From contig CACNDL010000002.1 in assembly GCA_902619265.1 (NCBI GenBank), positions 134,505 through 198,504 of the forward strand: 64,000 nucleotides of DNA, written 5' to 3'. Every line of letters starts with the position of its first letter. Position 1 is the stretch's first letter. The notes below the pieces were generated by a model that was not told the origin of the DNA, made no database searches, and saw nothing but the letters and a program-made list of their open reading frames with translations. The stretch is from an uncultured SAR86 cluster bacterium (GTDB lineage: Bacteria; Pseudomonadota; Gammaproteobacteria; Magnimaribacterales; TMED112). Shown here in pieces: positions 17,840 through 25,189 of this stretch. The translations under genes and the position numbers were made by a program.

Positions 17840-18613
17840 ATGAAAAAATTACTAAGTTTACTAACACTGTTTATCTTCATAGATAATATTCAAGCACAGA
17901 CTTCTGAGCAAACAATTTATAGATCTGAGTTTATGTTTTGCAATTTTAATGAAGGTAAAAATTATCAAGACGTTCTTGCAGAACAAGCACCATATGAGCA
18001 GTTTCTAAATGAAAATGGTCTTGAATACAATCGATTGAATCTATCACCAATCTGGGATAATGATTCTGAGTATGATTATGTCATGTGGGGGAATTGGCCT
18101 AATGGAGAGATGCAATACAAAGAGTGGGGCGCATATATGAATGATTATCCTGCTTGGGCATCTGAAAATGATATACCTGCTCAATCTGCAGGTGAGTGTG
18201 AGAATTTCGTATCTATGAGGAATCACCGTGTATTGAGAATAAATGCGGATTCTTATGATGATCGCATGTTTTCAGATTGGAGACAGTGCACACTGAAACC
18301 TCGAGCTAATATGGCTGAACTCAAAGCTGTTTTTGCGGAAATGGAACAAATGGCTAGAGATAATGGCATGGGAGGCTATGCTGTGCATTTCTTTACTCCT
18401 TACAGAGGCATGCAAGACGAGCTTCCATACGATTTCTTAATGTCGTACATTTGGTTTACTTCAGAAGCTAGATCAGCTGGAGTTGCAAATTGGCCTGAAT
18501 GGAACGCTATGATGGAGGAATCTGGCTTGTATAAAAAAAGAGATAAGCATATTGAATCATGCACTGGTGCAGATACTTACCAACTTGATTGGGTTTACAG
18601 CACTATAAAATAA
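17840..18613 (+). CDS. Secreted two-domain cysteine-pair protein, paralogue 1
   Basis: 257 residues with a signal peptide (KKLLSLLTLFIFI, cut after IQA). Two similar halves of about 100-110 residues each begin with a Cys-containing strand (FCNFNEG; QCTLKPRAN) and end with a second cysteine (GECENF; ESCTGAD). The pattern within each half (strand, helix ending in NG, strands, Trp-rich helix) suggests a duplicated ferredoxin-like fold, as in dimeric alpha/beta-barrel proteins. Homologous in layout to the genes at 24400 and 42704. Function unknown. A terminator follows directly. Confidence 0.75.
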   Translation: MKKLLSLLTLFIFIDNIQAQTSEQTIYRSEFMFCNFNEGKNYQDVLAEQAPYEQFLNENGLEYNRLNLSPIWDNDSEYDYVMWGNWPNGEMQYKEWGAYMNDYPAWASENDIPAQSAGECENFVSMRNHRVLRINADSYDDRMFSDWRQCTLKPRANMAELKAVFAEMEQMARDNGMGGYAVHFFTPYRGMQDELPYDFLMSYIWFTSEARSAGVANWPEWNAMMEESGLYKKRDKHIESCTGADTYQLDWVYSTIK

Positions 18614-19895: not shown

Positions 19896-21704
19896 ATGTC
19901 TAATTTTCTTAAATTTTTACTTCCGATATTTATCCTTATTAGCTGTACTGATAGTACAGATAAAGTAACAGAACAAGATGCCAAAGATTTCTTAGCTGAA
20001 GTACAAGAAAAAGCCATTACTGAAGGTCCTGTCTATTCATCGGCTTATTGGATTCAATCAAATTTCATAACTTATGATTCACAAAAGGTTGCTGCTGATT
20101 TTAGTAAACGAGGTATTTTAGAATCGTTAAAACAAGCAAGAACAGCTGCTACTTTTGATGCACTCAAGTTAGACCCACAAGATAGAAGAGCACTTGATAT
20201 TATAAAAAATGGGTTTGTAATGCCACCACCTTTAGATGATGATCTTGCCGGCGAAATGGCTTCCATAATGACTGAACTAGAAGCAATGTATGGTAATGGA
20301 ACGCATTGTTTTTCAGAAGATGATTGCTACGACTTAGAAGCTTTTGAAAATATTATCGACAATTCACGTGATGCAGATGAATTACTGAGAGCATGGAGTG
20401 GGTGGAGAGAAATTGGCAAACCTATGAAAGAAAAATATCTCAGAATGGTTGATATCGGAAATAAAGGTGCACAAGATTTAGGGTTTGAGGGCTTATCTGA
20501 CCTTTGGTTTAGCCAATACGATATGCCAGCTTCTGAGTTTTCTGAGACAGTTGACAGAGTTTATGAAGACCTGAAACCTTTATATGAAGGATTACAATGC
20601 CATGTACGAGCAGAGCTTAATGATTTTTATGGTGATGATATCGTGCCAAATGAAGGATCTATACCCGCACATTTATTAGGAAATATGTGGGCTCAATCAT
20701 GGCAGAATGTGTACGATCTAGTTTATAAAGAGGAGTCTGTGGGTAAACCTATAAACATTACCCAGGTCATAGCTGATAAAGGTTTAACCGAAGTAGATAT
20801 GGTAGAAATTTCAGAAAATTTCTTTTTGAGTCTTGGTTTTGATCCATTGCCAGATTCGTTCTATGAAAGATCCTTATTTGTGAAGCCAGTTGATAGAGCT
20901 GTTGTTTGTCACGCAAGTGCGTGGGACATTGATTCTGTAAATCAAGATTTACGAATCAAAATGTGTATCGAAAAAAATGAAGAAGATTTTTCTACCATTC
21001 ATCATGAACTTGGTCATATTTTTTACTATCAAGCATATAAAGATCAACCTGTTGTATTTCAAAGAGGAGCCAATGATGGATTTCATGAAGCTGTTGGAGA
21101 TTTATTAACTCTATCAATTACACCGAATTATCTTGAACAAATAGGGTTTGCTACAGATCAAGAAGCTGAATTAGCTAAACAAAATGAAGTCGCATTCTTA
21201 ATGAAAAAAGCTCTAGACAGCGTGGTAGCAACACCGTGGACATTAATGTTGGATAAATGGAGAATGGCTGTATTTAACGGGGAATTAACTGATTCTGAGC
21301 TAAATGACTATTGGTGGGAATTGCGAGAAAAATATCAAGGTGTTAGGTCTCCGAATGAAAGACCAGCAGATGCTTTTGATCCAGGCGCAAAATATCATGT
21401 ACCAGGAAACACACCGTATACAAGATATTACTTAGCAAGAATACTTCAATATCAATTCCATGAGTCACTATGTAAAACTATGGGCTTTGATGGCCCGCTA
21501 CACGAATGTTCAATTTATGGTAATGAGTTAGCTGGTGAAAAGCTCCGAACAATGCTTGCCTATGGTCAAAGTAAGCCTTGGCAAGATGCTTTAGAAAGTA
21601 TGATTGGTACAAGAGAAATGACTGGAACTTCAATGCTTAATTACTATGCACCGTTAGTTGATTGGCTAAATGAGCAAAATAAAGACAGAGTATGCGGTTG
21701 GTAA
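19896..21704 (+). CDS. Peptidyl-dipeptidase, M2 family (ACE-like) lipoprotein
   Basis: 602 residues, the size of a single-domain angiotensin-converting-enzyme homologue. The N-terminus is a lipoprotein signal (FILISC, Cys17). The zinc site is HHELGH with His370, Glu371 and His374, and the third ligand is Glu398 in ANDGFHEAVGD, the exact M2 spacing. It removes C-terminal dipeptides from peptides in the periplasm or at the cell surface, consistent with peptide scavenging. It converges with the following gene with no gap. Confidence 0.94.
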   Translation: MSNFLKFLLPIFILISCTDSTDKVTEQDAKDFLAEVQEKAITEGPVYSSAYWIQSNFITYDSQKVAADFSKRGILESLKQARTAATFDALKLDPQDRRALDIIKNGFVMPPPLDDDLAGEMASIMTELEAMYGNGTHCFSEDDCYDLEAFENIIDNSRDADELLRAWSGWREIGKPMKEKYLRMVDIGNKGAQDLGFEGLSDLWFSQYDMPASEFSETVDRVYEDLKPLYEGLQCHVRAELNDFYGDDIVPNEGSIPAHLLGNMWAQSWQNVYDLVYKEESVGKPINITQVIADKGLTEVDMVEISENFFLSLGFDPLPDSFYERSLFVKPVDRAVVCHASAWDIDSVNQDLRIKMCIEKNEEDFSTIHHELGHIFYYQAYKDQPVVFQRGANDGFHEAVGDLLTLSITPNYLEQIGFATDQEAELAKQNEVAFLMKKALDSVVATPWTLMLDKWRMAVFNGELTDSELNDYWWELREKYQGVRSPNERPADAFDPGAKYHVPGNTPYTRYYLARILQYQFHESLCKTMGFDGPLHECSIYGNELAGEKLRTMLAYGQSKPWQDALESMIGTREMTGTSMLNYYAPLVDWLNEQNKDRVCGW

Positions 21705-22936: not shown

Positions 22937-22963
22937 AAGAGGCACTTGAGTGCCTCTTTTTTT
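22937..22963 (+). terminator. Rho-independent terminator
   Basis: AAGAGGCACT (22937-22946) pairs with AGTGCCTCTT (22949-22958) with a very short loop and a T run, just after the gene ending at 22922. Confidence 0.9.
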
Positions 22964-23019: not shown

Positions 23020-23418
23020 ATGCGTTTATTTTTAACATTTATAACATTACTTACTTTTTTAGTATCAGCCGATGACCATGAGCAACCAAAATTTGAAGGT
23101 CTATTATCATCTGAAGTTTTTGCTTTAGATGGTGGGATGGAGCTTTACGTGGAGAAAAGAGCTACATGTAACGCTGGTACTACACCAAAGCACTTTCACC
23201 CAGCAGCAGGGACACTAGTCTATGTATTAGATGGTGTATCCCAATCAAAATCTACTGGTGAATGGAAAAATTATACTACTGGCGAATACTGGTACGAGCC
23301 AACTGATTGGGTTCACGGTGGCGAAGCCGATGCTCCTGATTTAGGAGATGCTTGTACTGAACTACTTGTAGTCAGAGTCGTTGACAAAGGCAAGAAACAT
23401 ACAGTTTTTGTGGAGTAA
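23020..23418 (+). CDS. Secreted cupin-domain protein
   Basis: 132 residues from ATG 23020. An upstream in-frame start at 22990 would put ten hydrophilic residues before the signal peptide, and a GAGG site precedes 23020, so 23020 is chosen. Signal peptide 1-17 ends VSA, giving a mature N-terminus Asp-Asp-His. The cupin motif 1 region is PKHFHPAAGTLVYVLDG, with two His for a metal; the second motif is WVHGGEADAPD. Probably a small periplasmic metal-binding cupin. It begins a tight run of four small secreted-protein genes to 25143. Confidence 0.8.
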   Translation: MRLFLTFITLLTFLVSADDHEQPKFEGLLSSEVFALDGGMELYVEKRATCNAGTTPKHFHPAAGTLVYVLDGVSQSKSTGEWKNYTTGEYWYEPTDWVHGGEADAPDLGDACTELLVVRVVDKGKKHTVFVE

Positions 23419-23420
23419 AT

Positions 23421-23900
23421 ATGAAAAAAATATTATTACTTACTATTGCTCTAATCCTTAGTTCTTGTGCCGATAACTCGATGTCACAAAGAGATATGAA
23501 TCTAAAAGTGGTAAACACTTTTTGGGACAATATTCTTACTGAAAACTACCAAGTAGCCCTTGATATGCTACATGAAGATCTTGAATTTGAATTCATGGGA
23601 ATTTGTACCATCTGTAAAAAATACGACAGAGAGGGTTTTGAAAAAGACTGGTTTATGACTGTTATTCCTGAAGTTTTGCCCGATGGAATTGTAATTAACA
23701 AAGTTAACCAAATGGCAGATGATGAGTGGGTTGTTACAACTTTTGTTGGAGAAGCCATGGCTGCTAACGGGGAATATAACAATAGATACGCAATGGTTAT
23801 GAAATTAAAAGATAATAAAATTGTCTTTTTTCAAGAATACCAAAGTGATTTATTAGCTGAAACTGCTTTATTTAAAAAAGAAGTAGTTGATATTGAATAG
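23421..23900 (+). CDS. SnoaL/NTF2-like lipoprotein
   Basis: 159 residues with a lipobox (ILSSC, Cys16). The mature part has the NTF2-like pattern: VNTFWDNILTENYQVALDMLHEDLEFEF at the start (the helix and first strand), a mid-domain CTICKK pair and strands at the end. Members of this fold are either small-molecule isomerases/cyclases or binding proteins. It starts 2 bp after the cupin gene and overlaps the frame of the next. No catalytic assignment is possible. Confidence 0.7.
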   Translation: MKKILLLTIALILSSCADNSMSQRDMNLKVVNTFWDNILTENYQVALDMLHEDLEFEFMGICTICKKYDREGFEKDWFMTVIPEVLPDGIVINKVNQMADDEWVVTTFVGEAMAANGEYNNRYAMVMKLKDNKIVFFQEYQSDLLAETALFKKEVVDIE

Positions 23901-23910
23901 GAGAGATAAG

Positions 23911-24381
23911 ATGAAATATTTATTTTCACTTTTACTGACGTTTACATTTTATACACATGCTGATGATCATGGCTCAGAAGCCGATGTTCTTGCAGCAGTC
24001 GATAAATACTATGCAGCTCGTACTGCTAGAGATTTTAAAACAATGGTAGCTATGGAAAGCAAAAAAGGAGTTTGCAGTACAAACTCTGATGGTAGTTTTC
24101 ATAAAGCATGTGTTGTTTTCACAGCTGAGGACTATGAACAAAACTATCCTGATGGATTGAATAATGTTCATTATCCAGAAGCAACAATGCTTACTAAAGA
24201 TGCTTACCTAGTAAGGTTTTACTATGAAGGAGTTGCTGGTTCTGATAATCAACCATATCGAACACGTGTAACAACAACATGGGTAAATGAAGATGGAAAT
24301 TGGGTGATGAGATCTCAACATTACTCATCAGCTGCTTATGGTGGTGTCCATCAAACAGTTCGAAGTGATTTCGAAGACTAA
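23911..24381 (+). CDS. Secreted NTF2-like (DUF4440-type) protein
   Basis: 156 residues from ATG 23911, preceded by GGAGAG; a start at 23887 would overlap the previous gene and add charged residues before the signal peptide. The signal ends THA, so the mature protein again begins Asp-Asp-His. The body (VLAAVDKYYAARTARDFKTM, and a final strand with WVMRSQHYS) fits the DUF4440/SnoaL fold. Function unknown. Same run as the cupin and lipoprotein genes. Confidence 0.7.
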   Translation: MKYLFSLLLTFTFYTHADDHGSEADVLAAVDKYYAARTARDFKTMVAMESKKGVCSTNSDGSFHKACVVFTAEDYEQNYPDGLNNVHYPEATMLTKDAYLVRFYYEGVAGSDNQPYRTRVTTTWVNEDGNWVMRSQHYSSAAYGGVHQTVRSDFED

Positions 24382-24399
24382 TTAACTAATGGAGAGAAA

Positions 24400-25143
24400 A
24401 TGAGAATATTATTGATTGTATTTTTAAGCTTCTTTGCCTTCAGTGATGATCATGATGAGATGTATCAACCTGGTTGGGCAGAGTATGTTTACTGTAATGT
24501 AAAAGAAGGTCTTTCAGATAGCAAAGCTACAAAGATGTTCGAAAAAAGACGTGCTGCGTATGCAGAAATAGCAGAAGGACTTGATGATGAAGTCGGGATG
24601 GTTGTGCTTTTTCCTTATTATACAAATGAGGAAATGAGAGATGGTGCAGATTTATTCTTTGTTACTCATGCACCAACTATGAAAGCGCTAGGAGAGCATT
24701 CTATGGCTATGTTTGCTGCTACTCAAGAAAACCCATTACCTGCAAGCCCATTGGAGTGTGATAATGCTTCCACTGCGTTTCAACGTATTGGGCCTTCATC
24801 TGGCGAAGTAACTGATTCTTTTATGGTTGATTACTATCCTTGCAAATATAAAGAAGGAGCTGATCCTGTAGCAATGAGAGCCCTACAAGCCGAATTTGCA
24901 ATGGAACATTATGCCAATGGCGCTCAAGGTGGATATAGATATATCTATCCTGCAGATGGATCTCCTAGAGGGGATGGTCCTGATTTTTGGTTTAGTGGAT
25001 CTTCTCCTAATCTGGCAACCTGGGGTGAAAGCACAGATATCTTCTGGGATAAATCTTATGGTTCTGAAGCCGAGAGAGCTAGATGGGATCATATGACTTG
25101 CGAGAGCAATTCAACCTGGTACGGCGAAAGAGTCCATAACTAA
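24400..25143 (+). CDS. Secreted two-domain cysteine-pair protein, paralogue 2
   Basis: 247 residues. The signal peptide (RILLIVFLSFFAFS) is predicted to leave Asp-Asp-His at the mature N-terminus. The first half begins YCNVKEGLSD and ends LECDNA; the second begins PCKYKEGADP and ends MTCESN, so each half has a Cys near each end. This duplicates the architecture of the proteins at 17840 and 42704. Function unknown. Last gene of the run, with a terminator after it. Confidence 0.75.
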   Translation: MRILLIVFLSFFAFSDDHDEMYQPGWAEYVYCNVKEGLSDSKATKMFEKRRAAYAEIAEGLDDEVGMVVLFPYYTNEEMRDGADLFFVTHAPTMKALGEHSMAMFAATQENPLPASPLECDNASTAFQRIGPSSGEVTDSFMVDYYPCKYKEGADPVAMRALQAEFAMEHYANGAQGGYRYIYPADGSPRGDGPDFWFSGSSPNLATWGESTDIFWDKSYGSEAERARWDHMTCESNSTWYGERVHN

Positions 25144-25160
25144 AATTTAATCTCTAATTT

Positions 25161-25189
25161 AACTCCGATCTCATAGAGGTCGGAGTTTT
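25161..25189 (+). terminator. Rho-independent terminator
   Basis: AACTCCGATCT (25161-25171) pairs with AGGTCGGAGTT (25177-25187) with one G-T pair and a 5-nt loop, then a few T. It closes the small secreted-protein run. Confidence 0.8.

Follow-up and report, generated by a model that had tools for sequence, protein, structure and literature searches.

Predicted Asp-x-His N-termini on several unrelated exported protein families of the SAR86 order

The window analysed here, a stretch of 64,000 nucleotides, comes from the 974 kb genome of an uncultured SAR86 cluster bacterium. It includes an operon-like run of four genes on the same (+) strand, separated by gaps of 2, 10 and 18 bases and bounded by two terminator-like hairpins (five such hairpins were found in a search of the region, against 1.2 expected). 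The features of the run are as follows.

22937-22958, + strand: intrinsic-terminator-like hairpin upstream of the run, a 9-pair stem followed by a T run
23020-23418, + strand: secreted small cupin-like protein of 132 aa (ORF; Cupin_2 E 1.2e-5; cupin His motifs)
23071-23079, + strand: predicted mature N-terminus Asp-Asp-His of the cupin, after VSA (gatgaccat; signal-peptide scorer)
23421-23900, + strand: SnoaL-like lipoprotein with a lipobox Cys and without X-X-His (ORF, profile match, signal-peptide scorer)
23911-24381, + strand: secreted NTF2/SnoaL_3-like protein of 156 aa, ATG at 23911 (SnoaL_3 E 2.4e-6; fold model)
23962-23970, + strand: predicted mature N-terminus Asp-Asp-His of the NTF2-like protein, after THA (signal-peptide scorer)
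24400-25143, + strand: secreted two-domain protein of 247 aa with a predicted tandem ferredoxin-like/dimeric alpha-beta-barrel fold (structure model)
24445-24453, + strand: predicted mature N-terminus Asp-Asp-His of the two-domain protein, after AFS (signal-peptide scorer)
25161-25187, + strand: intrinsic-terminator-like hairpin downstream of the run, a 12-pair stem with a T-rich tail

Just upstream of the run, window positions 19896-21704 encode a strong full-length homologue of angiotensin-converting enzyme (peptidase M2). The small 22494 protein of the window has no DDH motif; in genome G005 its place is occupied by a 147-aa protein (L083:4581-5024) that starts DDHIIPKS after MFS.

The product of 23020-23418 reached 25.4 bits against Cupin_2, under the curated Pfam cut-off of 27.2. 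Judged from its sequence it is cupin-like despite this score, since its cupin His motifs (His58, His60 and His99) are invariant, with Thr65 replacing the usual Glu. A sequence search found no relative of solved structure for it. The NTF2-like protein scored above the SnoaL_3 cut-off (28.3 bits against 22), and NTF2-like folds topped the fold search made with its model (pLDDT 87), while its sequence gave only weak NTF2 matches among solved structures. The two-domain protein matched no Pfam or NCBIfam profile, and no solved-structure relative was found by sequence search. Its model (pLDDT 92) was closest to 2pgc_A, a marine metagenome protein (Z 16.2, rmsd 3.1, 201 aligned), and then to sulfur oxygenase reductases (Z about 14). 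The modelled protein appears to have the tandem ferredoxin-like fold in common with these, and at 6-9% identity the fold alone. Chlorite dismutase, coproheme decarboxylase and DyP resembled it at Z about 9-10.

The first-pass annotation had proposed that three consecutive secreted proteins carry DDH directly after their predicted signal peptides. The placement of the motif agreed with the codon positions (gatgatcat in the NTF2-like and two-domain genes) and with a home-made signal-peptide scorer, blind to residues +1 to +3 except that Pro is barred at +1, which put the predicted cut exactly before DDH in 3/3 window proteins. VSA, THA and AFS are all acceptable -3/-1 pairs. The word consecutive needs adjustment, as the lipoprotein intervenes between the first two, and it is three of the four genes in the run that share the motif. 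The lipoprotein would have no free X-X-His end because Cys follows its signal. All three predicted mature chains thus have His at position 3, as in the ATCUN motif (NH2-X-X-His). In that motif residue 2 cannot be Pro, since its amide nitrogen must deprotonate; it is Asp in the three window proteins and never Pro among the His-bearing rows of the NTF2, cupin and EFHY families described below. In homologue rows the scorer often preferred a cut a few residues before X-X-His, and it hit X-X-His exactly in 37/74 NTF2, 23/42 cupin and 6/32 two-domain rows, with rows lacking the motif included in each total.

The sequence GAYGAYCAY occurs at 43 sites in the genome. When all 43 contexts were read individually, a signal-peptide-like segment preceded only three, all of them in this run. 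A wider pattern, Ala or Ser followed by Asp-x-His with ATGA upstream, gave 22 matches, and a signal peptide preceded only the cupin and NTF2-like ones (the two-domain gene falls outside the pattern, its -1 Ser being coded AGT). A background sample of 364 kb, combining the window with fifteen 20-kb stretches, contained 361 ORFs, of which 49 scored as secreted-like and had neither a lipobox nor a later membrane helix. Three of the 49 had His at +3, all in this run, and the probability that three random members of the 49 would lie side by side is p = 0.0026. Addition of stretches from six further genomes of the order raised the set to 151 secreted-like ORFs, which, like the 49, were called with the home-made scorer and not SignalP and include some false members. 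His was found at +3 in five: the three window proteins, a doubtful YNH, and a DDH protein in genome G009 that belongs to the EFHY family described below. In addition, two NTF2 proteins with DGH and two His-rich proteins of 202-203 aa lie a few residues off the scorer cut. These counts (3/43, 3/49 and 5/151) reject the idea that DDH generally follows signal-peptidase cuts in this lineage, and the earlier expectation that chance sharing of DDH is unlikely was borne out. The pattern that would have spoken against it, DDH common after signal peptides and His3 not conserved, was not what we found: DDH in this position is rare, His3 is conserved and residue 2 varies.

Asp is common after the predicted cut, being the second most frequent residue at +1 (11% of the 151) and reaching 14% at +2. 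An acidic post-cut preference of signal peptidase might on this basis have carried an accidental His3 along, spread by descent or by copying of signal peptides between neighbours, and the NTF2 profile does weakly match some 253-aa barrel-type ORFs over its first 60 positions. Against this stand the rarity of His at +3 outside the window and the turnover of residue 2 in the NTF2 family while His3 stays, and we regard hitch-hiking of this kind as already disfavoured and very improbable.

Across the SAR86 order, the NTF2 profile matched 93 of 203 genomes, the two-domain profile 83 and the cupin profile 50. A spread of the NTF2 and cupin families to other Gammaproteobacteria was considered and rejected, as a search of 369 genomes of the class with these two profiles gave matches in three and two genomes, respectively, all of them SAR86-order. 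Weak NTF2 matches (E above 1e-40) were left out of the NTF2 set, as were G077, with an internal stop, and G157, which is cut off; sequences whose mature part contains X were omitted from alignments and kept in the His3 counts. Of the 74 distinct NTF2 sequences in this set, 65 keep His3 and nine lack it. Asp1 is present in 63 of the 65 His-bearing rows, with one further row unreadable. Residue 2 in the same 65 is G (36), D (11), N (7), H (4), T (3), A (2) or S (1), and unreadable in one. The motifs include DAH, DTH and DSH, which are of the albumin and histatin types. In a tree computed solely from the domain columns, about 12 changes fall on residue 2 and 14 on residue +4 over the 65 His-bearing tips; over all 74, the His column changes about five times against 15 at +2 and 16 at +4, the median for the domain being 7. 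Between His3 and the first conserved Val of the helix there are about 2 to 7 residues, with His constantly at +3. This fixed distance from the cut, together with the free residue 2, fits an X-X-His tail and not a fold-anchored His. The His3 codons are mixed (CAT 50 and CAC 13 of 63 counted), as expected under protein-level constraint.

The retention of both Asp1 and His3 in most NTF2 rows goes beyond the needs of metal chemistry. Together with the freedom of residue 2, it could indicate that Asp-x-His serves as a recognition mark for an envelope partner (a protease or a sorting or export factor) and not as a metal site. That Asp is in any case a frequent +1 residue in this lineage, and that Asp1 is replaced in several rows (HDH, SDH, NDH, GHH), makes such a mark improbable in our estimation.

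The cupin family gave a less clear picture. His3 is present in 30 of 42 distinct homologues (DDH, HDH, HNH, DNH or GHH) and absent in 12, counting L153, L155 and L156 from re-read starts (two DDH and one without) and placing seven weak matches (E 1e-35 to 1e-39) outside the set. The +3 column changes seven times on the cupin tree, against five each at +1 and +2 and a domain median of 2. As +3 changes more than +1 or +2, the cupin family alone is weak evidence for selection on His3.

Of 32 two-domain sequences taken at E below 1e-10, all eight close homologues have His3 (DDH, DNH or NDH) and none of the 24 remote ones does. Read by eye, the remote members mostly start Gln-Glu, and the paralogue in the window (17840-18613) starts QTSEQ after QA. 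A chain that starts Gln-Glu, as in many remote members, can become blocked at its N-terminus through cyclisation, quite unlike an X-X-His tail with its free amine. DDH or DNH was also found in 10/10 of the 250-aa barrel paralogues of L251-L258, a biased sample, mostly picked for a match beginning at the signal peptide, that stands outside the counts.

His3 might instead be kept for a reason internal to the protein, such as packing against or closing a pocket or forming a subunit contact, with no metal at the free amine. It is lost clade-wise, like an ordinary functional residue, the domains hold other invariant His residues, and the first ten residues of the NTF2 model have a mean pLDDT of 82, so that the tail may be ordered. 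In the two-domain model, however, residues 1-3 fall below 50 and are predicted to form a loose, disordered tail, the NTF2 linker varies in length, and families that share no sequence have His at a constant distance from the cut and not from the domain. We consider this explanation unlikely, if the most credible of the alternatives.

A further family, here called EFHY, surfaced in the background sample as the DDH protein of G009, a secreted protein of 238 aa in which LSA is followed by DDHKVKPGGEVGEFHY. Its members (L275:2945-3661 and L295-L324) have no Pfam name, and kinship with the two-domain family was rejected, as no sequence similarity between the two was detectable. The EFHY profile matched 105 of 202 genomes of the order. 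X-X-His is present in 23 of 41 distinct members and absent in 18, a count that leaves out L305, L306, L307 and L309, whose EFH is the anchor motif itself. In seven of the nine genomes of the genus with a strong match (G009, G016, G013, G015, G014, G018 and G005), the EFHY gene lies directly downstream of SCO1/SenC on the same strand, and all seven proteins start DDH. In G010 and G012 it is elsewhere or unclearly placed. SCO1/SenC is the copper chaperone of cytochrome oxidase. Outside the genus no SCO1 was seen beside EFHY, judged from neighbour names alone, and in another genus EFHY adjoins the cupin (by match coordinates).

The link to copper rests on the EFHY family in other genomes and not on the run in the window, in which no copper gene was recognised. 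The one other copper link found was in G014, where a pseudoazurin with an EEH start (L085:982-1413; NCBIfam match above cut-off) is encoded in antisense orientation next to the NTF2/two-domain cluster. It was rejected as support, as it is on the opposite strand and pseudoazurin N-termini belong to the fold, of which they form strand 1.

Taken together, the comparative pattern supports selection for what is predicted to be a free Asp-x-His N-terminus on several unrelated exported proteins of the SAR86 order. The most economical function for such a tail is probably an ATCUN metal site, with Cu(II) the probable metal. Signal peptidase I would free periplasmic (or exported) proteins with an N-terminal Asp-x-His tail and an unblocked amine. 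The N-terminal amine, the backbone amides of the second and third residues and the His3 imidazole would then surround one Cu(II) or Ni(II) ion in a square plane, with the folded domain that follows (cupin, NTF2 or alpha-beta barrel) separate from the tail. Tails of this type on several unrelated envelope proteins could jointly retain or buffer Cu(II), which might serve the assembly of cuproenzymes. We put the probability that a selected ATCUN-type tail on these proteins together holds or buffers Cu(II) at roughly 0.6. The cleavage, the binding of metal, its identity and any role in buffering, delivery or feeding SCO1 are what we infer. The loss of His3 in some clades of every family implies a tail that is useful and not essential, and that is unneeded for the fold. 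More speculatively, and with rather low probability, the same copper-gripping tail on at least four exported families might amount to a distributed envelope store of Cu(II) (or Ni(II)) that feeds cytochrome oxidase assembly through SCO1, an albumin-like buffer in a bacterium.

ATCUN motifs are known from serum albumin, histatins (in which the N-terminal motif is DSH) and hepcidin (PMC7701195). The SAR86 tails resemble these: His stands at the third position of a chain predicted to have a free N-terminus, the first two residues vary, Pro is absent at 2 and the tail precedes a folded domain. The SAR86 tails differ in that the proteins carrying them are exported by bacteria, have unrelated folds and are in several cases encoded in one run, and in that their metal binding is predicted. 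PcoB, an outer-membrane copper channel, is likewise a bacterial envelope protein, involved in copper handling, with a disordered His-bearing N-terminal region whose motifs have been likened to ATCUN; the PcoB motifs are internal and the region is rich in His and Met, unlike the SAR86 tails with one His at +3 on small soluble proteins (PMC12509749).

Searches of open-licence papers on bacterial ATCUN (signal peptide, periplasm, copper chaperone, marine) and on copper, secreted proteins or cupins in SAR86 showed no description of such tails there. In histidine brace proteins (LPMO, CopC) the N-terminal amine is a copper ligand and His is required at position 1. The proposed amine ligand would be alike in the SAR86 tails, whereas these carry His at position 3 and mostly Asp at position 1. 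SAR86 bacteria are uncultured and abundant in the surface ocean. If the tails bind copper, envelope proteins that are otherwise uncharacterised would provide these bacteria with a simple means of holding metal, and unnamed protein families of the order would gain a first functional handle.

The His-rich secreted proteins of 202-203 aa noted above (L269:7784-8392 and L261:790-1401) form a family with no Pfam match and a His-rich N-terminus (MHHEMGEHNHS and GSDHDGHHMHG). In G109 a member of this family adjoins an NTF2 gene with the DGH motif.
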